64,000 nt of DNA. Origin: Gonapodya prolifera JEL478 (Eukaryota > Monoblepharomycota > Monoblepharidomycetes > Monoblepharidales > Gonapodyaceae). The notes under the pieces are model-generated. The model saw nothing but the letters and a program-made list of their open reading frames with translations. It was not told the DNA's origin and searched no databases. A program made the translations under genes and the position numbers. Shown piece after piece: positions 1,400 to 62,174 of the stretch; positions within the stretch are counted from its first letter, which is position 1; every line of letters begins with the position of its first letter. The stretch spans positions 336,425 to 400,424 of the forward strand of contig KQ965755.1 of the NCBI GenBank assembly GCA_001574975.1, given 5' to 3'.

Positions 1400-1425
1400 C
1401 GTTCCAGCAGAATATATAAACACAC
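1400..1425 (+). promoter_or_regulatory. Possible TATA element before the F-box/ankyrin relic
   Basis: The sequence AATATATAAACACAC occurs about 75 bp upstream of the ATG at 1491. It is a plausible TATA box on position and composition only. Confidence 0.3.
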
Positions 1426-1490
1426 TCCATGTCCCCTTCCGCAGACGCTTCCATCGCAGCCAACGCAGAGTCGAAATCACGCTACCTCCA

Positions 1491-6691: not shown

Positions 6692-6954
6692 GCGTATAGG
6701 GAAATGGGGATCTCCGCTTGTGCGCACCGAGGTGCCGGGCGTTTTTTCGGTGTGTTGCTCTGTCGCTTAGGACGGCTAAACTTGACTATGTTCTGAAGCT
6801 TTCAGATGATGAATTTCAAGATTTCACAACGATATCAAAAAGCGTTCCACGGCTGAAGAAGTACGACATTGTTCGATTGCAAGTGGGCTACAAGCCCAGT
6901 GCCTAAAGAACTGCCCGTTATGGGTAAATCTGTAGCAACAACCACCAAGAAACG

Positions 6955-7410
6955 TCAGTATTTCTGCTTTCTGCGTTCCCCACCCCAAACCAGCACGCAC
7001 TTACCCGACAGCGTTACATACAAATAATCTTCCCCGTAACGTACCGCGCCTCTTCGCTCGCCAAGTACAAGCACGCGTGTGCGACGCCGGACGGGAGCCC
7101 GACGAACCCTAATGGAACTGTCGCGCCGACGGTGGCGAAGGATGTCGGGTCTGGAGCAAAGGTTTCCACGGCGAGTTTTTGCATCCATCCTAGTGGTCGT
7201 GTGGTCGAGTGGTGTTGTTTGGGAGAAAGAAGAGCGATTGGCAAGAGACCTAACTTTCTGCACGACGATACACCCGATGTCCTCGACGATGTCAGCTCGG
7301 TGGCAAAGGATGTCGAGGGCCCCTCAACAGCGTGCATGGAGGTCACGTAGATACCAAGAGAGGGGATCGCTGGAAGATGGGGGCGTTCCGTGAGATGAAG
7401 CGTCGATTGG
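6955..7410 (-). pseudogene. 3' remnant of a short-chain dehydrogenase/reductase
   Basis: This matches the 3' half of the intact SDR gene at 9635-10984. LGIYVTSMHAVEG here corresponds to LGIYVASKHAVEG there, so the catalytic lysine of the YxxxK motif is a methionine. Further left are TVGATVPLGFVGLPSGVAHA and YLASEEARYVTGK, matching the C-terminal exon of the intact gene. After that the frame stops and the last part is degenerate. Everything 5' of the YxxxK exon, including the nucleotide-binding TGxxxGIG motif, is absent. It lies immediately upstream of the intact ZZ-RING gene, the same order as the intact SDR and second ZZ gene, so it is part of a segmental tandem duplication. Confidence 0.8.
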
Positions 7411-7619
7411 CGCGTTGCAGCTAAGAAGGAGCACGACAGAGTGCTGCAGATTTGGGTCTTGTATTGTAGATCATGTCGAGGACTTGCAGTAAATCAATCC
7501 AAATAGTGCCATTGGATATTGAATGGCAAAAGTCTTTGTTTGTCTTGGTGCTACAATGGTACGCGAGCGAATATATAGGTACCATTACATAAATGCCACG
7601 TCGTGGCGGCGAATAAAAA
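7411..7619. other. Spacer between the two duplicated units
   Basis: About 200 bp with no coding signal and no match that I can see to either unit. It marks the approximate junction between the copy at 4.2-7.4 kb and the copy at 7.6-10.1 kb. Confidence 0.5.
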
Positions 7620-9385
7620 AACTAAACAAGAATATTGGTTGGAAATAACGTTAGGCTGTGATCCCTGTCAGGATGTGAGATATGAGGTTTTCGCCATTGG
7701 GTTCGAATATAAGAACCCGAAGTCGTCCTCACCTCAGTTTCTTTCTGTAACAGCGCAAGTTCCCAATTCCGATGTGACGATCCGTAATCGTTTCCTTGGA
7801 AGCAATCTTCACACACATTATGACCATGGTCACCATAGGTGTGGCACTGAAGTGGACGACGAAAATTAATCAGTAAGTCATATATATTCGTGCTGTTGCA
7901 GTTGTTACGATCTTCCACCTTCAACCACTCCTGCAGGTTCGTTTTTCGGCAGGTGGAGCACGTGACATAGCTATAAATGAAAGACTGCGGCCGCTTGACT
8001 GTTGCGATCGCTCCACGGATCGTACGCTTGACTCTGTCGGGTACAAGACAGAACTCATGGCCTGGATGGACATTGCCTCGGAACTTGTAACACGATCCAC
8101 AGAGATCGTAGTTCGCGCACGATAGGCACTGGGTGGCGGCGAGTTCAATTGAGCCTCGTAGTTCGAAAAGTGACTGGGGCTTGTCGCAGGACACACCTTG
8201 AATCTGCTGTCTAGTCCCTTACGATCACACATAACTGGAGTCCAGAAAATTCCTCTGCTCAAGAACCGGTGGCCGTTTTTCCGGCTCCGGATGCAGGAGG
8301 CGGAACGAATGGTGGGTGGACGTACGCTACACTGGCAGCAGGATTGGCGTTGGTCGTAGTCAGGGCATTCGGCACACTTGAGCGGTGTAGGGGGACAAGC
8401 AAAAAGATGGTGAGGTTTGGATGATTAGCAGTAGAGTTTGGCGTGAAGTGGAAGTTGAAGGCGAAGAACGGACCTTGAATCATTCCTGGATGTTTTCAGT
8501 CCCACAATAATCGCAAACCACACCGTGCCATACAGGAGTCGCAAACTATGACCAACCATTGAGATCAAATCAATATCAACATCGAGTGTGTAGATTAGAG
8601 AATCTATAAATTTCAGAAGCAACGGCCAACCCACGTTCACGTCAATCCCTAAGCGGTACCAAAGTCCAAACGGGTGCCCCGGATGGACATACGCCGCGCT
8701 CTTATGGCAGGTCTTGCAGAGGTCGTAGTTTGGGCAGATTCGACACTTGAAACGTTCCTGGAGTCCTTGCACACCGCAGCCGTCACAGGAAAGAGACCGC
8801 CACGTTACCTTCGGTTGACGTGGGCCGATTTCCCTCGCTGATTGAGGATGATACATAAAATCTATTGAATACGAGGTGAAATACACGTGAAATCGAAATT
8901 TGAACTCACCGCACGGAACATCGGAGTTGTTGGGGGCGAAAACAGCCGAAATTGATGTCCCAGATGCCGCCTCAGAACATCTCTGAAACAATTCGTGCAG
9001 ACGTCGTAGTTTGGGCAGCTCTGGCACTTGTACCGCTGGTGGAGGCCAGTGGAAAGGCAACCGTCGCAATGGACATCCTGCCACACAGGTCTTTGGCCAC
9101 CATACATCGATCGTTGTGCTCGCAACTGATTTTAGCGGCGCGTCGACATACCGCTGAAGTTGAGGCCGTCGGACTCACTGCCACCATCAACCCAAACCAG
9201 TGCTCATATTCAGGATGGATCCTCGCCGCATCCCCGTGACACTGTCTGCAAAGATCAAAGTCCGGACAAACCAGACACTTTAAACGATTAGAGAGGCCAT
9301 GCAAACGGCAACCGTCGCAGTGAACTGTGGGCCACAATGTCGATTGAGGTGATGGCAGGAGGTTTGTGAAATCGATGCGAGACAT
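7620..9385 (-). pseudogene. Second multi-ZZ zinc-finger gene, decaying and lacking the RING
   Basis: The ATG at 9385 opens MSRIDFTN, and the gene follows the intact ZZ-RING gene exon by exon: HCDGCRLHGLSNRLKC, HCDGCLSTGLHQRYKC, SCDGCGVQGLQERFKC, CDYCGTENIQE, CLSCANYDLCGSCYKF and CSTCRKTNLQEWL with CEDCF. It carries several lesions relative to its neighbour: a shift after HWFGLM at the end of finger 1, an in-frame TGA at 8480-8482 in finger 4, a shift in the second half of finger 4 (the HPxH part falls in another frame), and loss of one CxxC cysteine pair in finger 5 (VMCDRKG against VTCDNCDRKG). After the last shared exon (LLQKETE, donor GTGAGGACG, acceptor TGACAG) the coding match ends: the linker and RING are missing and the sequence joins a stretch resembling the 3' flank of the intact gene. 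It is most simply a non-functional copy. Confidence 0.75.
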
Positions 9386-9634
9386 TGCGTAAGGTAAATG
9401 GGGGTCACTGCGTGGGCGTGCCGAGGGGATTGGCTTTTTGGTTGTGTTGCACTGTCACCCAGCACGCCTGAACTTCTCTTCTCTCATTCAGTTTTCTTTA
9501 GGGCATTATGATTTTGAGACATACCCATATCAAAAGGTTACACGTTTTACAAAGTACAAGATTATTATATTGCAACTGGCCGGGTACCAGTGTCAACAGT
9601 GTCGAAGCAACTGCCGCTAGCTCCACACGCGCCG

Positions 9635-10984
9635 TCACGGATACTCGGGCACATCTGTGGGCATAGCGCCAGAGACCGTCAGTATTCCGGCTTTGTCCAA
9701 CCCCACCCCGTATTCACCACTCAGCGTCAACCCCCCATCCATGCAAATACTCTTCCCCGTAACATATCTCGCCTCGTCGCTCGCCAAGTACACGCACGCG
9801 TGCGCGACGTCCGACGGAAGCCCGACGAACCCAAGGGGAACGGTAGCGGCGGCGGTGGCGAAGGTTTCCATGGCGGGGGTGTGGATCCAGCCTGGTGGGG
9901 TATGTGGTAGAGGTGAGATGTGGTGTTGGGGGAGAGAATGGTGAAAGAAGGGAGAGGAGAGGGAAGAACGAGGGACGTACCGGGTTGGACGACGTTGCAC
10001 GTGATGTCCCTGTACTTCGTCAGCTCGGCAGCGAAGGATTTGGAAAGGCCCTCGACGGCGTGCTTTGAGGCGACGTAGATGCCAAGTGAGGGGGTCGCTG
10101 GTGCGTGGGAGGCGTGAAGCGAGATGTAGCGGGGGAATGATCAAGCGAAAAAGGAACGTACCAATGAATCCACTCGTGGAAGACATGAGAATGATCCTGC
10201 CCTTTTTATTCTTGACCATGGTCGGGAGGACGCTGACGGCAGTACGGTCGATTCGTCAAATCTCATTACCTCGGCTGGCTCTCGGAACTGTTGATAAACG
10301 CACCTCTTGACAGTCAAAAACACACCGCGCACGTTCACGGAAAAGACGTGGTCGAAGAAGTCCACGTCGGTGTCTTCGAGACGGCTCGTGGGGAAGATTC
10401 CTTTCATTGCCCCGAGGATCGTGGGTCACCGTCGTGAATTACCATTGGACTGTGAAGACACTCACCATGATTCGCCACGAGTATATCCACCGTACCCCAC
10501 ATCTCGAGAGCCTTTTGTGTGCCTGTGTCTATGTCTTTTTTCTTGCTTCATGCCGCGAGTCCGTTGATCAATTCCCCATGAGTCATATCTTCACGTCCCA
10601 GCTGTACCCACCCACACTCACGAACAGTCCAGAATATGCCGCCACGCCTCCATTGGCCTTTCTGCAATTTCCAATAAAAGGTGCGGAATAGGAATACGAT
10701 TTCATTCTTTCGCTGTGCGGGACGACGCGAGCACGTAGTCGAGCCCTCAAACTTACATTTCGTCCACAACCGCTTTCAAATCTGCTTCCGTCCTTGCCAT
10801 CACCGTGACTTTGGCTCCTGTACACCCCCAAACAGCAAAAACCATCGTCAGCCTCCCCATCATTACCATCACCACCCCCACCCCAGGCCAACCCACCCTG
10901 CCTCGCGAACTCCAGCGCGATCCCGCGTCCGATTCCCTTCCCCCCGCCTGTGACGATGGCGACTTTGTCGTGCAGGCGGGTCAT
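9635..10984 (-). CDS. Short-chain dehydrogenase/reductase (SDR)
   Basis: An NAD(P)-dependent oxidoreductase of the classical SDR type, substrate unknown. The ATG at 10984 opens MTRLHDKVAIVTGGGKGIGR, with the TGxxxGIG dinucleotide-binding motif. Later short exons give AKVTVMARTEADLKAVVDE, an exon ending MWGTVDILVANHG (NAG-like motif, here ANHG), MKGIFPTSRLEDTDVDFFDH with FSVNVRGVFLTVKR, GRIILMSSTSGFIG (catalytic serine region), LGIYVASKHAVEGLSKSFA (catalytic YxxxK) and a last exon with PLGFVGLPSDVAHA and YVTGKSICMDGGLTLSGEYG, the usual SDR C-terminus. About seven exons with GT-AG introns make a normal SDR length near 250-270 residues. It lies just upstream of the decayed ZZ gene on the same strand; its 3' half is duplicated at 6955-7410. 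Exon joins in the middle of the gene are approximate. Confidence 0.85.
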
Positions 10985-11110
10985 GGTGGCGCGATCGGTG
11001 TGAGGGAGTGGGGGGGGGGGGGGTGAACAAATAAATAGATATGTTTACTTGAGTGCAATGTATGCTTCATTTCGAAACAACGACAACCCCTGCCACACAC
11101 GTCCCAAACT

Positions 11111-42073: not shown

Positions 42074-43312
42074 ATGGTGATTGGCGTCGACAGAGACAAA
42101 GCAGCAAACGCGGTGAGAGATGACTCGTTAAGAGAACGCGTCCGGCGGGCGAAGCAGCGGAGGGAAGATTCGAATGGGCAGCGATATTGCCGACCGCAGG
42201 AACATCCTGAAACCACTTGCAAGATGGGAAACGAGGAGGAAACGTACGGAATGGCACATAGCGAATTGAACTACCAGAGTCCGGACTCATTGTGGTTGAA
42301 TATGGGGCTGTGGAGCGATCCGGTGAGTGGGGTATTTTTGAGACTCACGAACCCAAAACAGGACGATACATTCCAAGACGCGTGTAAAAGGCTTGCCGTG
42401 ACTCTTGCAAAGACTGATCGCGCGTCGCAGGGATGCAGCTGGTTCGGTTCGTAATGATTCCGTCCCATTCCAACTTCAAAAATTGACCCACACCGAAGTC
42501 ATCTGACATCCTCGTGCCACAGCAGACGCCGGCTACGGATGTGGCGACCAAACCAACCTCTTTCTGCAACAATTTCGACCCGCGCGGTACGTCGGAGTCA
42601 CGTACGAGAAGAGCCACTACCTCGCAGCGAAGCAGCGTGTGCAACGACCGAGCGACTGTCTGGTGACGCTTCTGAAAGGCGATGTGGTGCGGGCGGAGAC
42701 CTGGATGTCGGATTTTGAACCGGGGGCGTGTGTCGCTGATGAAGTTTTGGGAAAAGACGACAAGTTTGATATCGTGACATGCCTCGACTGCGCGTACCAT
42801 TTCCGCACGCGGGAGGACTTTCTCCGTTTATCGCACTAAAGGCTGCTACGTGGAGGAGGCGCGCTCGCTCTGACTGACATCATCGCCGGAGAGACTCCCT
42901 GGACACAAAGCCTCACATGGCAGAACCCCGTGTCCACCCTTGGAGTTGTACTAATGCGGGCACTCTTCCTGCTCATCATGACCGCCACAAACGTCCCACT
43001 TACCAATCTGTGGCCTGGACCCGGGCTCTACGAGGCGCACCTACGTCGTCCGGGGTTTGTAGACGTGCAAGTGACGGACATTTCAAGCCAAGTGTTCCCA
43101 GGATTCCTCGCCTTTCTCGAACGGACGGTTTCGAACTCAGAGACTCCCGCATATCATGGTGCGGGACGGGTTTTCGTCCCCTTCACGTGTTGTCGCGCGT
43201 TGGGCGTTTTGGGTGATACTGGCAGTTCTACGCTTTTCTGTCGCCAAGCGCTGGCTCATTTTTGTCCTTGCACATGGGACAAAAAGTCACGAGTAGCAAA
43301 GCAGTACCAGGT
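42074..43312 (+). pseudogene. SAM-dependent methyltransferase with frame damage
   Basis: A class I methyltransferase frame begins at 42074 or, more likely, at 42224 (MGNEEETYGMAHSELNYQSP). The order LWLNMGLWSDP, DTFQDACKRLAVTLAKT, an intron, ADAGYGCGDQTNLFLQQFRP (SAM-binding GxGxG-like motif), RYVGVTYEKSHYLAAKQRVQ, KFDIVTCLDCAYHFRTREDF, then ALALTDIIAGETPW and GPGLYEAHLRRPGFVDVQVT is typical of fungal methyltransferases of the sterol or phospholipid type. A TAA at 42837-42839 falls in frame between FLRLSH and the LLRGGGALALTD strand, with no usable intron to remove it, and the likely C-terminus (SVAKRWLIFVLAHGTKSHE) is in another frame after about 43170. I call it a recently broken gene, or else an assembly error. 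It starts divergently from MOB1. Confidence 0.65.
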
Positions 43313-43439
43313 GTCACTTTGATGGGACGTCGGTTCACAAATCACCAGTCCCAGGGGCATCTACAGATTCTCGCAAATAGCTGTACTCATTTCACACGAA
43401 TTATAACTCAAATCTACAAATACGCGTCCCGCAACGACG

Positions 43440-44953
43440 ATGAAGCAGATGTCTGCGGTCACAGGTTCCCCTCCAATGACTTCCATCATCGACTCCCCGT
43501 CGGATGCATCGCCCGAGTTCTCCCACAAATTTCTCAAACGCCGCGCCGTGGGCGTTGTGCCTGCCGCGTTTTGTGAGTCTGCTCAATCTGCGGGCGATGC
43601 GTGGTTTGATTGCAAGTTGATACGACCGTTTAGCGGGTGGGCAGCCCAAGAGGGGCGTCGAGACGGGACCGGGCCATTTGATCGAGTTTGGATTGCTGGA
43701 GCAGCTGCAGAACGAGGTGCGTGCCCCCTCATAACATTCGCGGCAACGTCCCATTTCGCAAGCCCACACGGACCTGCACTGCATTCCCCGCCCCCCCTCC
43801 CAGGACCTCGGCTACGAAGTCACCCTCGACGAATCCTTCCCCCCCTGCGACTCCCTGCGCCCCGCCTCCGACCCGCTCGTAGGCCGACTCCGCAACGCGC
43901 GGTGGGTCTCATCCGTCTCACAGCGGGTCTTCTCCTCGGTCCGCGAAACTTGCGCCAAGGGGGACTTTGCCCTCACAATTGGCGGCGACCATTCGGTTGG
44001 GATGGGGACCGTGGCGGGGAGTGCGAGCGTGTATGAGGATATGAGAGTGGTGTGGGTGGACGCGCATGCGGTATGTTCCCCTTCCTGCTGTTTGTGGTTC
44101 GAAAGACAGCGTGAGAGCTAAAACGCCTCGTGCAGGATATAAACACCCCCGAGACAACCATCAGCGGGAACCTCCACGGGTGCCCCGCCAGTTTCCTCCT
44201 CGGGCTCGGCGGGACGACAAACGTTCCGCACTTTGAATGGTTGCGGCCTTGTCTGACGCCGGACCGGATCGTGTACATCGGGCTCAGAGGTGTGCAGAAA
44301 CTGCCCGTGTTGAAGCGCGGTCGGTGGAGATGTGACCTGTGTTTTGTGTAGATTTGGACCCCGGTGAGAAAAAGATTATTAGGTCGTTGGGGATCAAGGC
44401 GTTTTCGATGCACGAGTGAGTTGACATGTGCGCAATGCCACGACCATACTTTGATGCTTGCGGTCTTGTGTAGAGTGGACAAGTGGGGTATTGGACGCGT
44501 GATGGAAATGGCCTTGGATCACGTGAGTTGCGATCTGCAAGTCACCGTGCCAGGGGAACCACGGTACTCACTTGCGGCATTCCTGCATCAGATCGCTCCC
44601 AAAAGGGACAAACCCATCCACCTATCCTTCGACGTTGACGGTATGTACCCGTTCCCACCTTCATTCTTCTGGTGTTTTACACTCGTCAATATTGCTCGTT
44701 CCCGCGCCGCACTCACTCACCATCCTCAGCTCTCGACCCAAGCGTAATTCCCGCCACCGGTACACCCGTCCGTGGCGGCCTCACTTTCCGCGAGGGGCAC
44801 TACATATGCGAAGCCCTGCACGAGACGGGCCTGCTGGTCGCCATGGACCTCATGGAGGTCAACCCGCTCATTGGCGACCAGGGCGGGCTTTTGCAGACTG
44901 TTAGTATTGGGTGTGGGTTGGTGAGGTCCGCGTTGGGTGAGACACTATTATGA
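43440..44953 (+). CDS. Arginase
   Basis: Arginase hydrolyses L-arginine to ornithine and urea with a two-manganese centre. The ATG at 43440 (or 43449) opens a short leader, then [15 protein letters not shown]. After an intron come [60 protein letters not shown] (first Mn ligand in GGDHS) and VVWVDAHA, which splices to [20 protein letters not shown] to complete DAHADIN. Then follow [45 protein letters not shown] spliced to [20 protein letters not shown] (ligands in DVDALDP) and [14 protein letters not shown], stopping at 44951-44953. All metal-binding motifs are complete. Introns are about 50-110 nt. Length and motif spacing are normal for the family. Confidence 0.93.
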
Positions 44954-45129
44954 AAGGGAGGGTTCTTGTAATTGCTTGCGAGTTCGTATCTAGTAGAACT
45001 AGAGCTGCATCTTACCTGGATTCTCTTCCTCTGGAATACGTTTTAGCAAACACCGCTCGTCGGTCGGAGAATCCCCTGCCCAAGCAATCGACTCATAGGC
45101 TCTCCTACCGCTCGAATCCATCCCTCACC
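44954..45129. other. Short spacer before the duplicated-domain gene
   Basis: About 175 bp with no coding signal, holding the promoter of the next gene. Confidence 0.5.
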
Positions 45130-47662
45130 ATGTCTCTCCGCCCAATTTTTGCGCAGATTGAGCGCGACTTCGACTCAAAGCGATCGCAGGCTGCTGTTGG
45201 CGCTTCCGTGGGTTGATGTGGCAGATGCCAAGAGTTTCGCCTCACCGTCCACATTTTCAGGGCATCCTGGACCGACTGCGTAACGAGCTCTTTCACAAGC
45301 AGATTCTGTGCCCACAGGAGAACGCGGATCGGCAGATTGAGCAGAGCGTGCAGCTGGTGAGGACGTGAACCCCAGTTACAGAATCGACTACGTCGGACTG
45401 AGGGCACATCATCGTTTGAAACTTTAGGCGGAGGCTGATTATAATGCATACTGGACGAGGATTCATGTACGTTTGTTTGTCGCTCACTCGTGTCCTACGT
45501 TTTCACTTGAGTGTGCGAATCCCGGCCTTGACACTGTATGGACCCACATAGCAAGACTATGACCGCTGGCGCGACGGGGCGATGAAAATAGGCGAAAGAG
45601 AAATGTCGGACAGCGAGTGAGTTCAGGGTGAGCGCTCCATCTTCAGTCAACGTCCTTGTCGATTGACAAACTTGGGCAGTCGTGAAGTGTGGTACCAGCT
45701 CAGCGAGAAAATGTCTGGCGGGACCTACGAGGTCCAGGACTGGTACTACCGCAAGAGGGAGTCAGTTGTTCGACAGGCATTCGCCAGGGAGCTGCTCGAG
45801 CTCGCGGTATGTGCTTGCGTCCTATTTTGATTGAACCCAGTCTGCGACTGACGTCTACGTTTGACAAAAAGCCCCTTCCAATTATGGCCCTCCCGGTTGC
45901 AAAGGCAAGCTCTGGATTTTCTGTCGTTCCTGTTCATCCTACCGCGGCTCCGGGAGTCGGGCAAGTTGCAACTAGCGCTCCTCCCACAGCTGCACCACCA
46001 AAAGACGTTGCACCGCCAGCTCCTCCGGCACCGGCAGGGTATGTTATGAATCTTTTCCAAAGCGGATTGAAGAGCTCTGAAACCTTCGCCATTTTTCCAA
46101 CCATGCATGGCGCCTCCACCAATTGCCAGCTACGCTCCACCGCCAGCACCTGCTCCTCTTGTTTCTGCAGAACTCCCACCGGCCACGTACCTCCAATCAC
46201 TACCCATCGCGTCTGCGGTGCCCATATTCGCGTCCATTGAGCGTGAATTCGATACGAAACGGGCTCAAGCAGCGGCAGGCGCTTCAGTGAGTACAAGCTG
46301 GCTGCTTAAATGAATGAGTGCATTCTCAGATCTGATATCCGTGAATAGGGCCTCATTGGTCGACTTCGCTCGGAGCTTTACCACAAGCAGGTTCTGTTAC
46401 CGCCCGACAATGCAAACACTGAGATCGATCATAGTGTGCAGATCGTGAGTACACATGAACTCTTTGATCCGCAGAAGATACTAATGAACGTTTGTGTTTG
46501 GGTTTGAAGATCGAAGCCGATCTTAATGCATTCTGGACGAGAATGAATGTGAGCAAGGAAAAGACATTACCGAAAGTGTAATGTTGGCTGAAAATCCTTT
46601 GGACACTTTAGATGGATTATGAAAGGTGGAACGAAGGTGCTATGAAAGTCGGTGACCGGGAGATGCCCGACAGTCAGTGAGTGAAGATGCCAAGTTGCAT
46701 TTCACCTTCCTGTGATTGAGCGTCTCACTTCTTTAGGCGAGACCTCTGGTACAAACTCACGGAAAAGATGTCGGGCGGGATGTACGAAGTCCAGGTGCCG
46801 TACTCATCACTCGTTTGCAGAATGAATTATTTAGCTCACTATATTCACCATATTCTTCCGTTACCAGTACTGGTACGACAAGAAGAAAGAGGCGCTCATC
46901 AAACAAGCCTACGCAAGGGAGCTGCTCGATGTCCAGGTAAGCGCGCAATACCCTTTTTGCGTCGATGATTCTGACGGGTGTGGTTTGTGATCCGAGCGAA
47001 GCCCATTCCAATCATGCCTGTTCCACCAGCGAGCACAAGTTCGGGATTCTCACCAGCCCCGAAGCATCCAAGTGTACTGGTGGCAGCTCCTCCTCCTGCC
47101 CCGAAAAGTGGAGGGTGAGTGTGCTGGTGACAATCTGACATTACAAAATACCGATTCCGTACGTTTAGGATTCAACCGCTTGTGGGGCCTGAGCCACCTG
47201 CACCACCTGCGGTGTCCTCTCGTGGAATTGCTGTAGCTCCTCCACCGCCTTCAGCACCTCCACCAGCTTCACCAGCTCAGTCGACCGCGCCCCAGTACTA
47301 TGGGCATGCAGGAGCCCCACCCAGCGCACCGGCGCTGCCATCCCATCCAGCCCCGCCACCAGGACAGTACGGGTACTCTCCGAACCAGGCGCGGCAACAG
47401 GGATACTATCCCCCACCACCAGGTGGAGGAACGTGGCCTGCGCTTGGGCAGTTCGGCGGACAAGCAGGCGCAGGCTATCCTCCGCAGCAGTACTACCCGC
47501 AGCAATCAGCTCCGTTTGGGGCTGGATATCCCCCACAGCCACAGCCTGGGCGGCCGCAGCAAGGATATCCAGGATATTATCGTGAGTTCTCAGTGTCGAC
47601 AGTTTCCAACGGCTCACGAATCGTGATTCCGTTCCATTGCCTCAGCGCCTCCGAGCTATTGA
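45130..47662 (+). CDS. Two-repeat protein with an unrecognised W/Y-rich domain and Pro/Gln-rich tail
   Basis: From ATG 45130 one copy of a domain of about 135 residues reads MSLRPIFAQIERDFDSKRSQ, ILDRLRNELFHKQILCPQEN, AEADYNAYWTRIH, QDYDRWRDGAMKIGEREMSD, VWYQLSEKMSGGTYEVQDWY and RKRESVVRQAFARELLELA, then a proline/alanine-rich linker. A second copy (about 46200-46940) reads VPIFASIEREFDTKRAQAAA, LIGRLRSELYHKQVLLPPDN, IEADLNAFWTRMN, MDYERWNEGAMKVGDREMPD, LWYKLTEKMSGGMYEVQYWY and DKKKEALIKQAYARELLDVQ. Intron positions agree between copies at five sites; copy 2 has one extra intron, between the VQ and YWY residues. The tail from 47170 is rich in P, Q, G and Y and ends GYPGYYPPPSY after a last intron. 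I recognise no family. A 34-nt possible intron near 46040 would join both copies into one protein; otherwise these are two tandem genes, with the second starting at MAPPPIASYAPP (46107). Confidence 0.6.
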
Positions 47663-48746
47663 CCAACCTAATTAAGAGGTCCTGATGTGAGACATGCGGT
47701 TACGCCGCGGTGGAGGGACCTTGCAGAATTACTTACTGTAAAGTGTCAAGAAAATGTAATCGAAACGAGCACCCCATCAACTTCAAATATACTCTGGCCT
47801 TGCTATTTCAAACTTCCAGTAGTTGTCACTGCTTCTTAAATCCCTGCATCTCTGGTTCCAAATCAGACACGTTGAGAAAGTACAAGAACTGATTCGGATC
47901 ACTATTCTGCACACGTGAGCACATGACGAGACATAAAGTGTATACGAAGTCATTTTTGAGCTGTATACAATCCATGCAATTATCGGTGTTTTCCCTCACG
48001 TCGATGTGGTCGCCTATATGCCCAATCCTCCTACACCGTCACCAGTCGCTGCTTATTCCATCCAAATCCACCAGTCCTACCATTGTGAGGGGAGGATAGA
48101 TCGACGGAGAGCGAAGCGACGAGAGTGTAAGCACTGACAGTAACAACAGCGTGCTTAAGTGAACCGATTAACTCACCACGACGCGGCTACCCAGTCCAAC
48201 AGCACAAGCAACCCCATCAGACATTACGAGTCGTCGAGGAGGTGAAAGGGGAACTCGACGAGGAAACGGGACGCGGCATACAAAAAAGAATTTGTACCAC
48301 GCTGACAGCACCGTGCTAATACCACAAGTATCGGGCACGCCCGGTTGCCCGGCAAGGGGCCGCTCAACGATGCCAACACAGTCGCCTCGCGGTTGCTCAC
48401 GCACCGCGCGATGCGCAGTCGGAGCCCAGATGTCCATGGAGGTGTACACGAGACTATCTTCGACCGGGTCCTCACGACCGAAGCGCTGTCTCGCTGGCTC
48501 CCCTGGACGTCTGGCTCCCCTGGACATCTGGCAGTGGTGGTGGTGAAAAGGAAAGGATGCCCAGTAAACCCTGAACAGCTTAGCGACCGCTATCACAATA
48601 GAGTGGATTGTGAATACAAACACTTTTAAATTCTGAAGTCTAAATCGAGGAACTAATGAGCCCTAAGAAATCTAACAGAATATCTACGTCCACTATGTGA
48701 CAGAGTCTCGCGTCCCGGTACCTGGTTACCACAACCAGAGAGTCGT
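47663..48746. other. Intergenic region, nothing recognised
   Basis: About 1.1 kb between convergent genes. Some open frames occur at 48.2-48.6 kb on both strands, but none resembles a known protein and none has supporting splice signals. Confidence 0.4.
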
Positions 48747-50826
<2,080 letters not shown>

Positions 50827-51324
50827 GATCGCTCAAAAGAGAAAGTGCTGCTGCGGCCACCACTTCCAAGCTTCTCATGCGTCCGCACCACACTTAGGCC
50901 GGGGGGCCAGCCGTCCACTCAAATTATAATCGTGCACTCAATAATTGTCGTCCCAATGGCTTGGGTCAGGCTGGTGCCCGCACCACCTGGGCACCCAAAG
51001 CCGTGGTTCCATCTGGCTTCCCGGACTACACCACACTCAGGTGCACGGAAAATCAGAGAATTTGAGTGAAAGAACAAAAAATCGTTGCGTCGTTGACTGT
51101 TATGCTTTTCGAAGCGTTTAAGCATTTATTTCTCGTCGCGAAGAACGAAAGTTTTAAAGCATGAGGCTCTTCCGTTTCAGTGTTATGATATTGTTATGAT
51201 CCGCATCTATTTGAACCTTCGTACCGACATCCAACAACTACATACTGAAAATGACAAATATCTAAAATTGCGACCAATTACTTCTGACAAAAGCACATCA
51301 TTCCACGTCCGAAGAGAGCTTGAC
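50827..51324. other. Intergenic region
   Basis: Between the helicase start and the 3' end of the ankyrin gene, both on the minus strand. No gene seen. Confidence 0.4.
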
Positions 51325-52690
51325 ATTCTATTTCGGAAGTCGTGCACTCCTTCGACGTATGCCTCTGTCTTGGAGCACCTCCATTACTGCTTTACGCCGC
51401 TCCTCATCCAAACGACCAATCCAAGTCTGTTGCGACCGATTGAAATTGTCCTTGATAGTAATGTCCCCGCCTTGATCCAAAAGAAATGCGAGGAGAGCCG
51501 CGTTACCGCTTTGCAAGGAATGAGTGACTGCGGTGAAGCCAAATTCATCTTGGGCATTGATATCCACCCCCGTGTTCAAGAATAGTTGCGCTACTTCCAC
51601 AGTCTGCGCCACATGCAGAGGAAAAAATTGGACGTCAGGGTTCGGTCTTCCATCAATGCTTGCCCCTCTCTGAATCAGTGATCGAACAATGTTGATGTTC
51701 CCCCCCGCACACGCATGATGAAGGGCACTCCCAGTCCCTGTGGCGTTTATATCTGCACCATTATCCAATAGAAATTTCACATGCCCTTTTTGACAGGAAC
51801 AAAAGAGTGCTGAAACTTGACCGGACCAGATATTTGACCGAAAGGGGTGTTGACATCGGCCCCATGTTCCACCAGCATCCGCACAAGTTGCTCCTTTCCC
51901 ATTCGGCTGGCGATCAAAATGCCTCTGTAGTCATGGAATGGTGCGAGAATTACAGATGGTGGTTCTTCATGGAATGGCGGACCTGCATCGGCTGATACTC
52001 CGCGCTTCAGCAGCAATTCAACAAGACTGATATTGGAAAGCTTACACTCCTCTAAAAAGAAGTGTGTATCAGGGTTGTCGGTTCCCCAGGTGAGAATGTC
52101 TGAAGGGGTGTGATCAAGAATGAGCTCGACATGCGACATGTCTTGGGTCTGCATTACTCTCCTCAGACACGTCTCTGTCGGGCGTGCAGCTAAAGATGCA
52201 AGAAGCTGTACAATACCCTAGTATACCTCCTTGGAGGCCACCTCAATTGCAGCATCACCGTCCGGGTTACGTGCATCCATATTTGCTCCATGATCACAAA
52301 GATATTTGACTACCTTTGATGCTCCGTACGAAGAAGCCATTGTGAGAGGGATATGAAACTTCCTGTGACGAGACGTCCACGCAAGGGTTACGGATGTTAA
52401 GTTGTCGACGTTTGCAACCTTGGCGAGGAGAATATCTGCCGAACGAGAGTCCGTTTGATTCTGCTCGCAGGATTCCTTTACGAATGCATTTTGGACCGCA
52501 TAAAACCTCCGAAGGGCATGGGCAGCAATTGCCACGGGATCCGACAGGATCGGGTAGAGCCGTCGATTGAGACATGTAGTGGGGAGGCCGAGTGCATAGG
52601 GTCCGCTCCAGTACGTTGACATCCGGAGAATGATTTCGGGAGTGAGTTGGAGGAGGGAAATGGGGCGGAGGGCGCCGCCGACTGCTCGGA
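51325..52690 (-). pseudogene. F-box/ankyrin-repeat gene with two frame breaks
   Basis: From about 52690 leftward the frame reads LRPISLLQLTPEIILRMSTY, an F-box-like motif, then CLNRRLYPILSDPVAIAAHA, LTMASSYGASKVVKYLCDHG and ANMDARNPDGDAAIEVASKE. A TAG follows at about 52219, in the same frame as the next repeat, which continues GIVQLLASLAARPTETCLRR, HVELILDHTPSDILTWGTDN, HFFLEECKLSNISLVELLLK and EQLVRMLVEHGADVNTPFGQ. At about 51781 a run of AAAAAG carries one extra base relative to the homologous reading (KGHVKFLLDNGADIN). The rest is intact: GNINIVRSLIQRGASIDGRP, VAQLFLNTGVDINAQDEFGF, ALLAFLLDQGGDITIKDNFN and KAVMEVLQDRGIRRRSARLP. With about ten repeats it is the most complete ankyrin gene in the window. 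It is paralogous to the copy at 29.1 kb. Two breaks may be real or assembly errors. Confidence 0.72.
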
Positions 52691-53080
52691 ACGAACACGG
52701 GGAGATCGTCTGAAGCCGGCTCGTGCAATGGGTGGGTCACGGAATGTGTAAAATGTGTCAAAGGGACCGGCTCAACTGATGAAATGACGCGGTGACAATT
52801 ACAATATCACATCATGGCTTTTCCTCCCACTCTTTCTCCCAGCAAATTGAAGAGTTCAAAGAGCTCAAGATTTTTTTCCAAGACGTTCCGGAGGGGTGCC
52901 CATATCTTTTAGCGCTGCGCATAATTCACGTCGTCAGAGAACGCAATAGAATTTTATGATCTGTATGAAGCAATACACCATGCACTACTAATTGGGGCTG
53001 AAGGTGAGGGGGATCGTGCACGACAGCTTCGGCCACCTCAACGACACTTCCCCTCCTGATTTTCGCGACAACAACGTTCG
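52691..53080. other. Divergent spacer before SMC4
   Basis: Between the 5' end of the F-box/ankyrin gene and the SMC4 start codon. No gene recognised; must contain the SMC4 promoter. Confidence 0.45.
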
Positions 53081-56000
53081 ATGCTGAGCGCAGCCAAACA
53101 GGCCGATCCGCCTCAGTTGGAAACAGCGCAGATGGATGCCCACGAAGACTCCGGCCTGATCGATGACACTCCGCTCCATTCTGGCGCACGTCTCATTATG
53201 ACACGGATGATTCTCAACAACTTCAAATCCTACGCGGGACGGATCGAAGTGGGACCGTTTCATAAGGTGGGTTGGCATGATGCCTGTCCAGGGGAACTCT
53301 GACCTGGTTGTACGCTGACCTCTTGCCCTTCGACCTTTCCGTTCTTCAATCATGGCGCCACCCGACGACTCCTTCCAGTCGTTTACTTCGATTGTCGGAC
53401 CAAATGGATCGGGAAAATCCAACGTCATCGATGCTCTTCTCTTTGTATTCGGTTTCCGAGCGTCCAAGATGCGACAGGGAAAACTCTCTGCACTCATCCA
53501 CCAATCGCAAAAGTTCCCGAATCTTGATTTCTGCGCGGTAGAAGTACATTTTGTCGAGATTATTGATAAGGTGAGTTGGCCCTCACAGTTAGTTCGGTGC
53601 CACCCTGTCATCTTTCCGGCACCTATCCTCTGGCAGCCCGGACTAGCCTACGACATTGTTCCCGGAACCGAGCTCGTCATATCTCGTACGGCCTTCGCCA
53701 ACAACAGCTCTAAATACACCATCAACGGACGAAATTCCAACTTCACCGAAGTGACCGACCTCCTCCGCAAACGTGGTGTCGACCTGGACCACAAACGTTT
53801 CCTCATCCTTCAGGTTTGTCTCTTCTTTTTGATTCTCGCTGTTCCACCACGGCTACATCCCTCGTCCTCTTTCTCCACCTGCATAGGGTGAAGTCGAATC
53901 CATCGCCCTGATGAAACCAAAAGCCGTAAACGAGCACGACGAAGGTCTCCTCGAGTACCTCGAAGACATCATCGGTACTGCGTCGCTCAAAACTCCCATC
54001 GAAGAAGCGGGCAAGCTGGCCGAGGATTTCAACGAGGAGCGACAGCACGCTGTTATAAGGGCGCGTGCAGCAGAGAAGGAACGTGATGCTCTCGAGCCCG
54101 GAAAGAGGGAGGCGGAGGAGTTCGTAAAGCAGGAGAACGAGCTCGCCAGGTTGAAGAACAAGTATTACCAGGTCGGTGCGATGAAAGCCCAAAGGACCAT
54201 TCAGGAACACGAAGAGGAAGTTGTGAGTAATGGCGCGAACTCCAACTTTGTGCGATCCCCCTCCTGATTTGATGATGTGCCGGGTAGTCTCAAATTACCA
54301 AGAAGCTTGAGGACGAACGTTCAAAGCACTCTGGTCTTCAGCAAGAAATCGATGAAGCCGAAGCGGAACACAAGAAGCTTGCCGAGGAGCACAAGGTGAG
54401 ATACAACAAGTCAAATTTGCTTTGAGTATGAATTATTGATGTACTCTCCTGTGGCTGCTCGACGAGTAGAAACTAGGTGAGACTTGCAACGAGGAGCTCA
54501 AGGCCATGGCGGCCTTGGAGAAGGAGGACATCAAGCTTCAAGAGAACCGAAAGCACCTCAAAGCCAAGATCAAGAAACTGCGAAAGCAGGGTGACGCGGT
54601 AAGTTGTCTTGGTTTCGCTCGTAGGATGTCACATCAAGTTCTCACCCGATGGAATTGTTGAAGGGCCGGCACGACATTTCGGAACTGGAAACCAAGATTA
54701 AGCACGCCGAGGAGGATCTTGTCAACCTGGAAGCCGAAGCAGCTCGCCTGTCCAAGGACAAAGAGAGGGAGGAAAGGGTTCTGGACACGATTCGCGAGGG
54801 CTTGCGAGGTGCGGCTGCTCGTTAGCTCCTCTCATCCGTTTTTTATTCACCTGCCCCTTGCTGTTCGTAAAGGTAAAACCGAGCCCTTCCAGCGCGGAAT
54901 CGAGGTCAAGCAACGCGAGCTGGCACCTCTTGTGGAAAAGTGCAACGAAAAGCAGTCCGCGCTCGACGTCGCCAAGGCCGAGTACAAGATGCTGGAGGAG
55001 AAGAGCGGCGCAGCAAAGACCCAAGAAGAGGTCCTCCGGAAGAAGGCGGAGGAGGCCAAGGGTAGCTTTGAGGCGAAGGTGTGACATCAGTGGAGTGGCT
55101 TCAATGGTGCGATATTGACAATTCCTGGGTCGATAGCAACGCGAGATCGAGGGGTGCGAGAAGAAGTTGAAGAAGCTGCCGAAGGAGATGGACCAGACCA
55201 AGGCGCAAATCGAGGTGAGCATCCGACATTGGTTACGTTCCACATATGTGAGTTCCCAGGCTCATCATACTCCAATCTCAGGATCTCATGGTGAAAGAAG
55301 TTCGCCTCCGGGACCTCCTGAACAAGTGCCGAAACGACGCGGAAGAGGCCAAGAGCTCGCTCCAGGAGTCGCAGGGACAGGGGAACGTTCTGAAGAGACT
55401 GATGAAGGAACGCGATTCTGGGAGAATTCCGGGCATCTATGTTAGTCGGACTCATAATTTGACTGTTTGAAATATGCTCACTACTCGAGGTTTATAGGGG
55501 CGACTCGGAGACCTCGGAATAATCGGTGACAAGTACGACGTCGCAATCTCCACCGCATGTCCAGCACTTGAGCAGATACTGGTCGATTCTGCCGATGTCG
55601 GCCAGCAATGCGTGCAGTTCCTCCGTGATCACAACCTCGGGCGAGCATCGTTCTTGCTTCTAAAGCAGCTCTCGGTCAAACCCGAGAATATGTCGCCAAA
55701 GCAGACACCAGAGAACGCCCCTCGACTCTTCGACTTGGTAAAGCCAAAGGATCCCAAGTTCGCACCAGCGTTCTACAGCGTTCTGAATGATACGATTGTG
55801 GCGACGGACTTGGAACAGGCGAATCGGTTGGCCTTTGGAGGGGAGAAAAGGTGGAGAGTCGTTACGTTCGACGGTCAGTTGATCGACACAACAGGAACAA
55901 TGTCTGGAGGTGGCACAAAAGTCGCTCGGGGACTCATGGTGCAGAAGTTCAAAAGCAATGATGTCACCGAAGCTGGCGTCGTGAAGATTGAAAACCAGAA

Positions 56001-58188
56001 GCTCGAGTTGGAGGCAGAGATGAAGGCGGTCGCGGCGGAGCGGAAGCGGTTGGACAAGGCGTTTGAAGAACTGTCTGCGCAGGCGTCTGCCCTGGAAATG
56101 TCGATAGAGAAACTCAAGATGGAGAAATCGTCTTTGGAGGTTCAGATTGCGGAAATTATGAAGCAGGTTGCGGCACTGGGGTACGTCTCGTCAGCGTGTG
56201 TTCCAGGTGAAGATGTCCGTTCACTCACTCCACACTGAACCTGTAGGGGTACACGCCCTGACAGCGGTGACCTGGCTCGGATGAAGCAATTAGAAACTTC
56301 GATCTCAAAGCTGGAAAAGGAATTCGCCGCCTTGAGAAAGCCATGCGAGGAGGTAGAGGGAGCGATTACCGATCTTCAGAACAGAATTCTCGAGGTGAGT
56401 GAAACACTGAATTATGCGGTTTATGAACCCTTGATTTACCTTTGCTTGTTGTTTTGGGTAGGTCGGAGGTACCAAACTCCGTACTCAAAGCTCCCGCCTC
56501 GAGGACGTAGTCGTTAAGATCGAATCCACGAGCGACAAGATCACTCAAACCACCGTCGCGAAGAAGGCCGCCGAGAAGTCCATGGACAAGACGCTGAAAG
56601 CCAACCAAGCGAGCGCCAAGGAGCTGGAGGAATCGGAGACCCAGCTCGCGGCTCTCATGAAGGAGATCGAAACGAAGATGGAGGCAGGGCTTGCGGTTAA
56701 GAGGAAGGCGGACCGTGCGCAAGAGGTGAGTGGATTAGAGTATCGGGATTTGGTTACGACGCGACTTACAATGTTCAACCGTGATGTAGATATTGGATGG
56801 CCAAAAGGAGAAGCTGGAGGAGTTGAGTGCCCAGCAGAAAGAACGGCACACGGTTATGCAGAAGCTTCGCCGAATTGAAGTGAGCATTATCGTTTTCGTC
56901 TCCACAAGAGGAACATTTCAAATCGGCGTGCAATCCCTCAGGTTGATTTGAACAACAAAATGGACGATCTTAAACGAGAAGTACAATCTAAGAAAAAAGA
57001 GCTCGTCTCGTGGACCGCGGAGCTTGCCAAACTCACACTGCAAAAGTTTGGGTGAGTCATGCGCCGGTTTGATTTGTCGTTTACTCACAATACCGTTCCC
57101 ACTGCAGCTTCTCTGATGAAGAAGACGAAGAGGAGCTTCCTGCTTTCACAGAGGAGGAGCTTGCGGAATTTGATGTGAAAGAGCTTCGGCGGACTATGGA
57201 TGCTATCGAAGGTGAAGCCGCGCATCGACACCAACCGATCGAAAATTCGCAATCCTGACTCGCTCTTCTACTGCACCTCCCATAGCCAAGCTCAGCAAGG
57301 CCCAACCGAACCTCGGCGTGCTCCAGGAGTACAAGGAACGCGAGGAGGAGTACTTCAACCGTGTTCGGGATCTTGACGAAGCGACGAAGCGAAGAGACGA
57401 CGCCAAGGCGGAGTACGAAGGGCTCCGTAAGAGAAGGTTGGAGGAGTTCATGAAGGGTTTCACGGCGATTTCGAATAAGCTGAAGGAGATGTACCAGGTT
57501 GGTTTTGGGTGCCGGCGTGTGGAGTTGGTGCCGTCTGTTTTAATGCGTGCTAATCTGCCGGACCTTCCGTGCTTAGATGATTACACTGGGTGGAAATGCG
57601 GAGCTGGAACTTGTGGACAGTTTGGATCCGTTCTCGGAGGGTATCTTGTTCTCGGTAATGCCGCCCAAAAAGAGCTGGAAGAATATTTCAAACTTGTCTG
57701 GAGGAGAAAAGGTACGATTGCGTAGCGTCTTTGGTTGTTTCGGGGGGGGGGGGGCCAATGTAATTAAATGTATCAACCTGCACAGACGTTATCTTCGTTG
57801 GCATTGGTGTTCGCGTTGCACCATTTCAAACCGACACCCCTCTACGTCATGGACGAGATCGACGCTGCGCTTGATTTCAGGAACGTTTCCATTGTGGCGA
57901 ATTACATCAAGGAGCGGTGAGACGGAGCTGGTTGTAGCAGGCGTTTCCTCATGAGTTCATCTTCGTCGTTTCGCATAGCACTCGAAACGCGCAGTTTGTC
58001 ATCATCAGTCTCCGGAACAACATGTTCGAGCTCGCCGATAGACTCGTCGGGATCTACAAGACAGACAACACAACAAAGTGAGTGGCCTCTCGCCAAGGGA
58101 AGTTGGTGATTTCTGCTTTACTGACGGTGTTGGGCTGTATAGGACCGTCGCTATCAGTCCGGCTGAGATTGCTGTCATGGCTCGATGA
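53081..58188 (+). CDS. SMC4: Condensin subunit Smc4 (SMC ATPase)
   Basis: Smc4 pairs with Smc2 in condensin to compact mitotic chromosomes. From ATG 53081 ([20 protein letters not shown]) many short exons encode [17 protein letters not shown], then [20 protein letters not shown] (Walker A), [40 protein letters not shown] and [20 protein letters not shown], typical of the N-terminal head of Smc4. Coiled coil follows, interrupted by the hinge at about 55500-55950: [61 protein letters not shown] second coiled coil leads to [34 protein letters not shown] (signature), [40 protein letters not shown] (Walker B) and [20 protein letters not shown] with [13 protein letters not shown] before a TGA at 58186. 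A run of 13 G lies in the intron before the Walker B exon. All ATPase motifs are intact. Confidence 0.93.
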
Positions 58189-58779
58189 GGGAGGGCGCTC
58201 CTGTTTGGTGTTGGTAGTGGGCTTGTTTTATTCTGTTATATTCTTGCAATTGGTTGTGCTTACATGCACTCAGCGACTGTATGTACTCAGTGAAACGACT
58301 GACTTTACCGTCAACACGTCAGTCCCCGCGTGTGTGGAAGATAATGGTGCCTCTGATTTTACCCATCGGTTGAAGCCGATCGTCACCTACCACAATTTAT
58401 CCAAAGAAAAACAACAAAAAGCATTCCCCGCGGGAGTTGTCGGAGCTTCTTTCTCTTGAGGCAAAGAATAATTTACCTTCGGCCCTGCTCCTCTGTGTGG
58501 TGCGGCAGCGGAGTGTACTTGGTATGCTTGTCCGTGTGGCTTGCATTCAAAGATATCAAAAGAAGCAAACTTACCATCCGAAAATGCTTACCTGTGACTT
58601 ATAGGCGATTTGACATGCTTATCGCTCCCAGATATATGGTAGAAAATGGTGTGTGGCGGAGAGGTGTAAAGTGGCGGTTGAGGCGAGTTTTCACCCAAAA
58701 CCGCAAACTCAGGGACTGAGACCCCACCCCGTGGACTTTCCCACTGCTTGCTTCGATTGGTCCGCCAAACACGATTGCG
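58189..58779. other. Intergenic region between SMC4 and the SH3 gene
   Basis: About 590 bp without a recognisable gene; an ATTGGTCC sequence (inverted CCAAT box) lies at about 58756, 25 bp before the next ATG. Confidence 0.45.
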
Positions 58780-61700
58780 ATGGAGGTCTACCCCCCGAGA
58801 TCCCGCTATGACGGGGGTTATGCGGGAAACATGGACCAGCCGGGATACCAGTCATACGGATACTCCTCTCCCCAGACGGGACCGGTCGGATACTCTTCGA
58901 GGGCAGCGTCGCCTGCAAAGTCTACAACGGATTCGGGGGTCGCTCTGCCCCGTAATCAACGGTCAGGGAAATCCATCGCCAGCGAGGTAACTCTCGGGAA
59001 AGAGTCCAAGTCGAGCAGCTACGGCGTGGGGTCGCCTGCCCGCTCGCAAAAATACGGATACACAACGTCCACATACGGAGGGGACCTCGGTGGGCGGGAA
59101 TCGGCGGCCGGGTCTCGCCCATCATCGGCTGCTGCTCGAGGGCCCACCAGAGCTTCGGGATTCGAATCGGTGTATCAGTCCTCCATGGGCCGCTCGGCTA
59201 GGGACTCCCGGGCCAGCGACTTCAAGGAAACGTACTCCATTCCAATCACCGATGAGATGTCCGACACCGAACAATTCCCGGCAGTCAATCCTTACCTGAA
59301 CCCCAAGCCCGCTTACTCGGCATCGCCATCCCAGACATTGTCAGAAAACCGACGAACATCGAAGCCCTTGCCTGACCCACAAACTTACAAAGCTCACCCC
59401 CCGTCAACACCCACCCTCGCCGAACCACCAACCTCCCCACTGTCACCCACCCAGCCAACCCTCTTCGCCGTCACAATATTCGCATACTTTGCCGAACGCG
59501 CAGATGAACTAAACTTCGCCGAAGGTGAGATTGTGCGCGTCCACAAAACCCCCGAGGGTGGATGGTGGTACGGCTCCGTGGAAACCTTTGGCGAAGACAA
59601 CAGCCCGACGGACTCCACCACAACAGCCGTCCGCCGAAGTGAGGCAGACAGCCGCATATCTCGCGGGCAGTCGGTCAAATCCAACGGAACCTCGAAAAAA
59701 GCCCGTCGCGGCTGGTTCCCCTGCAACCACACGGCCTACTACCCCTACCTCCCGGATGAGAAGCCCGCCTTCAGTCAGGAAGAACTCGAAGCCCTCAGAC
59801 TGCACCCGAACAGCGACCAGTCGGGAATGCAGGCCATCATGAACGACCTGATGGTCGAGTCGGTCAACGTGGGTCCAGCACAGGCGCTGGCCCAGCCGCC
59901 CATGGCTCGTGGAGTGGAAAACGTATCCCCGACGCCCGGTCAAATGTCCAACAACACGTTTGCCCTGCCGCTCATTCCGGACTCACCGCCTCCGTTCCCG
60001 CAGTACCCCATCGCGGCTCCCGCTCCTTCCCAAATGCGGCCCGACGAAATCCTCTACCGCACTCTTCTCTCACAGGTCCCCGGTCTGCTCATGTCCAGCC
60101 TCGACCCGTACGGGAGCCTGGTCCTGTGCGAGAAGAACTGCTCCGTCACGTTGGACTCCCAGTCGCCCACCCCCGGCGGGCAGCACAAGTCTTCCAAGCA
60201 GCCGGGTTCGCTTGACGTCTCCCGGCTGCACTACGACCCGGCCGTCGTGTTTCTCCTTGAACGAGCCGTCGTCGTCATCGCGCCCGAGGGAGCGTACCAG
60301 GAGGCGCCTTCGTCAGAGGCAGGGTGGGGAAAGCTGAAGAAGTCCAAGACCATCGGACACCTACCACAAGGCGGCGGCGGCGGGGGTGGAGCGCCCGGTT
60401 TGCAGTCGACGTGGAAGCTGGTCGAGCTTGCTCCCTTGCACCGGGATCTCGTTGAGGTGCGCGAGCAGGTTGAGCAGCCGCCTAGTAGTCGTGGGCTGTT
60501 CGGACTCGGTGGGAAAGCACCCCCCCAAACCACATCGTTCCTCGTTCGGTACGCTGTGACAGGCGACACGGGCGCGCTGAGGGGATGGCGGAAGTTGGTG
60601 GTCACCATGTCCGCGTCGCCTGGGTCAAAAGTGAGGTCTGAGGATCGGGTCAAGGTGTGGGTTGACCAGGTCAAGGAACTGGCTGATCAGAGTGAGTTGA
60701 ATGGAGGGAAGCATTTGTATATGGCCGGCGGCCTCACAAATTCTCGTCTCCAACAGACGTACACCACTCTGCATCAGGACTTCGCACTTCGAACGATGGT
60801 GGTCAAGGCATGGTGACGCATTACGAGCCTGAGTATGGCGGCGAAGGCCAATCCCAATACGTTCCTGCATCTTCCATGATGGACCCGGGCGCCGGCCCCG
60901 GCTACGCTCCATCAATTACCGCCTCCGTCGAGTCCCCGCAACGCAACAAATCGCAAAAGATCGCCTCGACGCTTAAGAACCACATTCGGGGCATGTCCTT
61001 CGATGCTCGGCGCCAACCTCCGCCTGACAAGGTTCTCCCCATGAACTCCCGTGGGGTTTCGGTGGACGTTCGGAGGCCCGAGACGCCGCAGTCGGTCGCG
61101 GGGAGCAGGAGACCCAAGACGTCGCACACGTTCCATGACACGTCGGAGCTTGCGTCCGATCGCGAACAGGGGTACAAGATGGCGCGCAAAGGGTCCGATG
61201 CGGGTCGCGCGCAGGCGGATCGTGTGACCCGGACCGTGGAGAATTTGATCAAGAAAGTGGTCGGTGAGGAGTCGGGGCAGCGAGACGAGCCGGTAACTGG
61301 GATGGCGGCCGCGGGATCGGGATCGGGGACGTCAAATATGGGCAATCTATTGCGCAAGTTGTCTCGCAAGGCCTCTGCAAAGTCCGAACCAGCGCCCGCC
61401 GTAGAACCGGTCTACCCGCCCGCGTATGCAAATGGAGTTACTGATAACGGGTGGAGCTTCCACCAAGCGGGGCAGCCGAGGAACAACGGGCAGGGAGGGA
61501 ATGGGAGCAAGATACTCACGGGTGATGCCCGACCTCGCACGACGACACACTATGGGGCAGGTCAGATGGGCAGCTTTGCCGAGTTTGCGTCGTTGGCCAC
61601 GTCTGTCTCGGCGCCTGGAGGCCTGGCAGACTCGGCGACGGTGGGGGCTCCGGATCGCCGATACATGATGGCGGACGGATCGGATATTGTTCCTGGAGGA

Positions 61701-61886
61701 GGTGGTTCGTACTCGTCGTCACCGGGCGTGATTGTGATGCGGCGCAGCTCTCATGAGGTCGACGACGGCGACATGTCGGAGACGGAGAGGGAGTACCTCG
61801 ATTTGCTGAGGCAGAAGAAGGAGCTGGATGCCCGGTTGAAAGACTTGGAGAGCAGGATGCTCAGATCGAAAATGGTGGGGAGATAG
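58780..61886 (+). CDS. SH3 and PH-like domain scaffold protein
   Basis: Two exons, 58780-60691 and 60757-61886, joined by a 65-nt intron (GTGAGT...CAACAG) give 1,013 residues in frame. The first 210 residues are disordered and rich in S, Y and P. An SH3 domain follows: LFAVTIFAYFAERADELNFA, EGEIVRVHKTPEGGWWYGSV, then an unusual charged loop of about 35 residues before KARRGWFPCNHTAYYPYLPD, which completes the domain. After a linker, DEILYRTLLSQVPGLLMSSL, SLVLCEKNCSVTLDSQ, LHYDPAVVFLLERAVVVIAP and TSFLVRYAVTGDTGALRGWR look like a PH-fold module. The C-terminus has SETEREYLDLLRQKKELDAR and KDLESRMLRSKM, a short coiled coil. Without the intron the protein would end at MVVKAW and a second open frame would begin, so the intron is well supported. 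Probably a cortical or endocytic adaptor; the specific family is not recognised. Confidence 0.78.
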
Positions 61887-62174
61887 AGTGTGCACGAGGA
61901 CAGTGTGTAAAGTGCGTACCGTTCGTTGTAGGATGGTGAATGGGTGCTGGTCATGCACGGACTTTCCTCTATTTCGTTTGATGTACAATTACGGTAATGT
62001 TGGAGATGAATGGTCGTTAGTTGATATTCTGTGGGTAATGTAATTCAGTTGCTGTAGGAAAGTATAGATTTGTGGATGAATTGAGGAGTCCAAGGGAATG
62101 AAGGGGGACAAAGGTTTGAGCGCTTGACTTGGCAGGGTTCAAGAAGGCTCGATGATAAACTTACGATTGGCGAT
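61887..62174. other. Intergenic region
   Basis: About 290 bp of AT-richer sequence between the coiled-coil gene stop and the GH114 gene; promoter and 3' untranslated sequence only. Confidence 0.45.

Follow-up and report, generated by a model that had tools for sequence, protein, structure and literature searches.

The 64,000-nucleotide window analysed here carries, at 45130-47662 of its forward strand, a gene whose predicted product is built around two copies of one module. A single spliced frame, opening with the ATG at 45130 and closing with the stop codon that ends at 47662, in exact agreement with the bounds given by the first-pass annotation, runs through 15 exons without an in-frame stop and encodes 532 residues. 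All 14 introns are of the GT-AG type and measure 53 to 91 bases; a few splice sites are weak, with AAG acceptors in 3 of the 14 introns and a poor GTGCCG donor in the one intron that only the second copy contains. This exon model is deduced from sequence alone, as are the duplication and the constraint described below. The shortness and frequency of the introns were judged to suggest a basidiomycete fungus. The gene has two neighbours, one of the arginase family (Pfam PF00491; pieces joined from its final portion give E 4e-26) and, on the other side and the opposite strand, one for a DEAD-box helicase (PF00270, E 5.9e-31). Scans of the window with Rfam and with ARAGORN at bacterial settings found nothing.

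Module 1 (residues 1-135) occupies exons 1-5 (45130-45207, 45261-45356, 45428-45466, 45552-45616 and 45680-45806) and is followed by exon 6 (45872-46038), which encodes a proline-rich linker. Beyond the linker intron at 46039-46129, exons 7-12 (46130-46286, 46349-46444, 46510-46548, 46612-46676, 46737-46794 and 46868-46936) encode the end of this linker and module 2 (residues 219-352). Exon 13 (47002-47114), related to exon 6, supplies the linker of the second copy; it is separated by an intron at 47115-47168 from exons 14-15 (47169-47581 and 47646-47662), which encode a tail rich in proline, glutamine, glycine and tyrosine.

The repeated module and its introns

In a gap-free alignment 82 of 134 residues are the same in both modules, and a single BLASTP comparison gives 82/133 identities with an E value of 2e-68. 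Nucleotide differences are concentrated at third codon positions (34, 22 and 77 at positions 1, 2 and 3), with a dN of 0.27 and a dN/dS of 0.098 (about 0.10), a ratio that is rough because dS, at 2.7, is near saturation. By this comparison both modules have been kept under constraint. They are similarly acidic (pI 5.27 for module 1 and 5.23 for module 2), have many aromatic and charged residues in common, and both contain every motif that the first-pass annotation had quoted for the repeat.

The likeness extends past the module itself. A stretch beginning P-x-PIM...SSGFS, with which exon 6 starts, also follows copy 2, so that the conserved unit reaches about 23 residues further (P-x-PIM...SSGFS..P.HP), and the two linkers align with a score of 91, the best of 2000 shuffles reaching 85. 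Because the linkers are related, the duplicated block spanned at least exon 1 to the linker intron; module 2 would have originated long ago, when exons together with their introns were duplicated in tandem inside the gene. The start of exon 7 was compared with the start of the tail in search of the breakpoint of this duplication and gave no signal (937 of 2000 shuffles scored as high), and no half-repeat was found inside the module.

Intron positions record the same event. Inside the module both copies have five introns at matching places and in matching phases, phase 0 for those that follow residues 26, 58, 71 and 135 and phase 2 for the one in codon 93; a sixth, in phase 2, lies at the end of each proline-rich linker (46039-46129 and 47115-47168). 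Were introns placed uniformly, an illustration rather than a test against a realistic model, the probability of five such coincidences would be about 7e-11. The clear internal duplication proposed earlier is therefore borne out by the 82/134 identity together with the common introns; the earlier statement that the common introns agree in position and phase also stands, with the total corrected from five to six.

The one additional intron that had been assigned to copy 2 is found at 46795-46867. It follows the residues YEVQ in phase 0 and, being 73 bases long and hence not a multiple of three, leaves the frame open only when it is spliced out. Copy 1 has no counterpart, nor does the diverged remnant described below. 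The earlier view that this intron marks a gain or a loss after the duplication is supported: it would have been either gained in copy 2 or lost from copy 1. Set beside six common introns, it is a clean example of how a single gene gains or loses an intron.

A diverged counterpart on a second contig

Searches of the gene's own genome assembly (47,557,447 bases in 207 contigs, the two-module gene lying on contig C25) returned 17 matches for module 1 and 14 for module 2, and all 14 of the latter as well as 15 of the former fall on the gene itself or on a remnant of it on contig C18. The two remaining module 1 matches were rejected: one on C27 (E 0.0175) has a translation that by eye resembles a cytochrome P450, and one on C43 (E 1.46) scores no better than chance. 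The genome search turned up no further copy of module 2. Elsewhere in the window, the segment at about 51284-52667 has many genome matches at 65-84%, which suggests a multi-copy gene family, and the segment at about 1497-2987, with matches of 68-80% on C21, C17, C81, C121, C59, C126, C39 and C72 besides C18, suggests another such family or families.

Over the stretches compared (window 1406-11000 and 43002-50400), C18:101497-163400 is a colinear, diverged counterpart of the window with 76-87% DNA identity. Positions 1406 to 11000 match in four pieces at 80-87%, and nearer the gene the identity is 82% at 43002-45881, 76% at 48116-48256 and 87% at 48594-50400; from 50400 to 62000 the matches to C18 are short and non-colinear.

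On this counterpart the gene is broken. Its remnant, at about 4320-5086 of the reverse complement of C18:102900-112800, carries two single-base deletions in exon 4 that lead immediately to a stop, and about 2.2 kb are lost, beginning shortly after the start of exon 6 and ending some 450 bases beyond the stop codon, with a junction of about 16 bases in their place, so that linker, module 2 and tail are all gone. The fourth intron has also changed, its donor from GTGAGT to GTGATT and its acceptor from CAG to AAG, and still begins with GT and ends with AG. In principle the single-base deletions could be errors of the assembly, which is improbable for the large deletion. What is left of module 1 departs from three of the motifs quoted earlier, reading HTQ for HKQ, EKISGG for EKMSGG and QAFAMGLL for QAFARELL. 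Between the gene and the remnant, dS is 0.35 over exons 1, 2, 3 and 5, and dN/dS, on small counts, is 0.05-0.07 in exons 1-3 and 0.48 in exon 5.

C18 and C25 may represent either two haplotypes, carried by the nuclei of a dikaryon, or the two subgenomes of a hybrid; hybrid basidiomycetes have been described (PMC6642101, PMC7884421). Because one genome copy survives only as a remnant, two doses of the gene's function are not required, and the function itself may be dispensable; the broken copy, as a natural gene loss in one copy of the genome, is useful for judging dispensability. Beside the remnant, a segment of about 4.3 kb on C18 (C18:103309-107569) stands opposite some 340 bases of the window (48256-48594). 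It contains open frames, the longest of 213 codons, and matches only itself in the genome, and thus is no evident repeat.

Family searches and likeness to DNA-binding domains

That the module matches no known family, as had been claimed from its letters, holds in Pfam-A, NCBIfam and PDB sequence searches. At E values up to 10, Pfam-A returned no entry for module 1, module 2, four half-module pieces or one piece of the C18 remnant. With the whole protein the only entry listed was SrfA (PF24296; E 0.096 over 29 residues, 48-76), taken to be a chance match, since its 13.2 bits fall short of the curated cut-off of 27 and the module alone does not find it. NCBIfam gave no match for either module. 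Among PDB sequences no chain was found for module 1 or a two-copy profile (E up to 10) or for the whole protein (E up to 1), and a three-row profile drew a single chance-level chain, chloroplast FTSHI 5 (E 0.84, 27 residues). The profile search that had been named as the way to overturn the claim thus yielded no highly significant known family in these three collections, within which the modules are a candidate uncatalogued, or orphan, family. No relative was confirmed in contigs of viruses and prokaryote genomes or, with module 1 as the only query, in plasmids, non-fungal collections that say little about fungi. In the literature the motif strings of the module were not found, and at the level of topics no title or opening of an abstract was relevant.

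Folded alone and without an alignment, two single exons give helical AlphaFold2 models. Exon 5 of copy 1 (42 residues) forms helices at 2-10 and 15-41 with a turn at SGG (mean pLDDT 82), and exon 2 (32 residues) forms two helices at lower confidence (mean pLDDT 70). These two models support a predominantly helical module and imply no particular fold.

The strongest alternative to an uncatalogued family is that the module belongs to a known helical family but has diverged so far that sequence profiles miss it. The helical exon models are in keeping with this, and the profiles are thin, consisting of two modules and one remnant (Neff 1.3); but nothing credible emerged, the SrfA and FTSHI 5 matches being the best, and comparisons with HMG boxes and homeodomains were negative. 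We regard such an origin as a serious possibility, though one that falls short of being probable. The combination of a correct gene model, the duplication and an uncatalogued family appears to us, taken jointly, moderately probable. That the module founded a family with a new helical fold, restricted to a single lineage of fungi, and that it was duplicated once in its gene and has already vanished from one of two diverged genome copies, is a bolder reading, and we hold it to be rather unlikely.

A more specific proposal, which we rate as quite unlikely, is that the modules bind nucleic acid in the manner of an HMG box or a homeodomain, and that the protein acts as a transcription or chromatin factor whose tail is disordered. 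Some 70 residues in the second half of the module recall, by eye, the HMG box (PF00505), which is likewise helical and has, at similar spacing, a tryptophan and a last helix rich in lysine and arginine (W-Y-x-L-(S/T)-EK....YE......K/R in the module), while V-x-x-W-aromatic-x-x-K/R (V-x-x-WY-x-x-K/R-K/R) recalls the recognition helix of homeodomains (PF05920, Homeobox_KN). Tails of comparable composition, moreover, occur in nuclear proteins. Both likenesses were examined by hhalign profile comparison against families drawn from the same genome (15 of 27 HMG matches were fetched and 9 long ones used; homeobox, 3 of 3), with 100 shuffles of the columns, and the module in reverse, as the null. Among the HMG and homeobox matches, several form near-identical pairs whose members lie on different contigs (C30/C78, C87/C19 and C117/C31).

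The HMG box scored 10.4, a value matched by 53 of 100 shuffles and surpassed by the reversed module (17.3), and the homeodomain 11.2, matched by 20 of 100 shuffles and again surpassed by the reversed module (13.2). All five left-out HMG groups were recovered, at probabilities of 73-99.6%, so the method works for HMG boxes, to which this positive control applies; the homeodomain profile comprises three sequences. Nor did any Pfam HMG or homeobox entry appear, at E values up to 10, for the modules or the whole protein. The modules further differ from an HMG box in their length of about 135 residues and their acidity, and the second helix of the exon 5 model is 27 residues long. The recognition helix of homeodomains carries WFxN, which is present in three homeobox loci of this genome; it is absent from the modules, where the two copies read WYYR and WYDK, with arginine or lysine in place of the asparagine.

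A probable single protein and its possible role

A single two-module protein is favoured on the predicted splicing, because the linker intron at 46039-46129 keeps the frame. Its removal completes a phase-2 codon and places module 2 in frame, which moves the junction suggested previously (46042 to 46077) to 46038 joined to 46130. If the intron is left unspliced at 46039, the module 1 frame instead stays open until about 46240, where it meets a stop within the coding exon of module 2. Five AG sites are listed for 46060 to 46160, two of them in phase: the acceptor at 46129 and one at 46072, which would make an intron of 34 bases. These points speak against two adjacent genes of one module each, derived by tandem gene duplication: module 1 would lack a stop before about 46240, whereas the acceptor at 46129 restores the frame of module 2, and the counterpart intron after copy 2 has the same phase. 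An ATG at 46107 does open a frame directly into module 2, and a form containing module 2 only is possible from this start, but we consider two separate genes very unlikely. That there is no working gene here, the frames being open by chance or the copy decaying, is barely credible, for although the C18 copy is a remnant and the gene is known from its sequence only, 15 exons free of in-frame stops, the third-position bias and the dN/dS between modules all argue otherwise.

Within the single two-module protein, the linker between the modules has 23 prolines among 83 residues, and the 180 residues after module 2 (the linker of copy 2 and the tail) include 54 prolines, 17 glutamines and 23 glycines; judged from this composition, the tail is probably disordered. 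It contains five [GY]YP[PG] motifs, the count for the whole protein, where shuffles of linker and tail lead one to expect 0.35, the motif having been picked after looking. PSAP occurs twice (0.38 expected, p 0.05), and the C-terminal PPSY, likewise picked after looking, has a p value of 0.012. PPxY overall (p 0.75) and PxxP (p 0.52) are at chance level.

A proline-rich linker joining tandem helix-rich modules would be flexible. Because the modules are similarly acidic and share the same aromatic and charged residues, they probably engage the same type of partner, and both would then bind the same kind of protein, making binding bivalent, while the tail would recruit readers of proline motifs of the WW, UEV or SH3 type. 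A bivalent adaptor with a partner-recruiting tail is the most likely role that we infer for this protein, and we propose it only tentatively.

The two-module gene looks real and conserved, and is otherwise one among many fungal proteins without an assigned function. It merits cataloguing without being startling, and adds a well delimited, strongly constrained domain that has no relative in Pfam-A, NCBIfam or the PDB and whose exon bounds are ready for expression.

Among known systems, proline-rich adaptors of endosomal sorting or of the WW/SH3 type resemble it only in the presumed manner of working. Such adaptors likewise combine helical modules with a tail that bears PSAP and a C-terminal PPxY; the protein differs from them in that no common domain was found and its motifs barely exceed chance.
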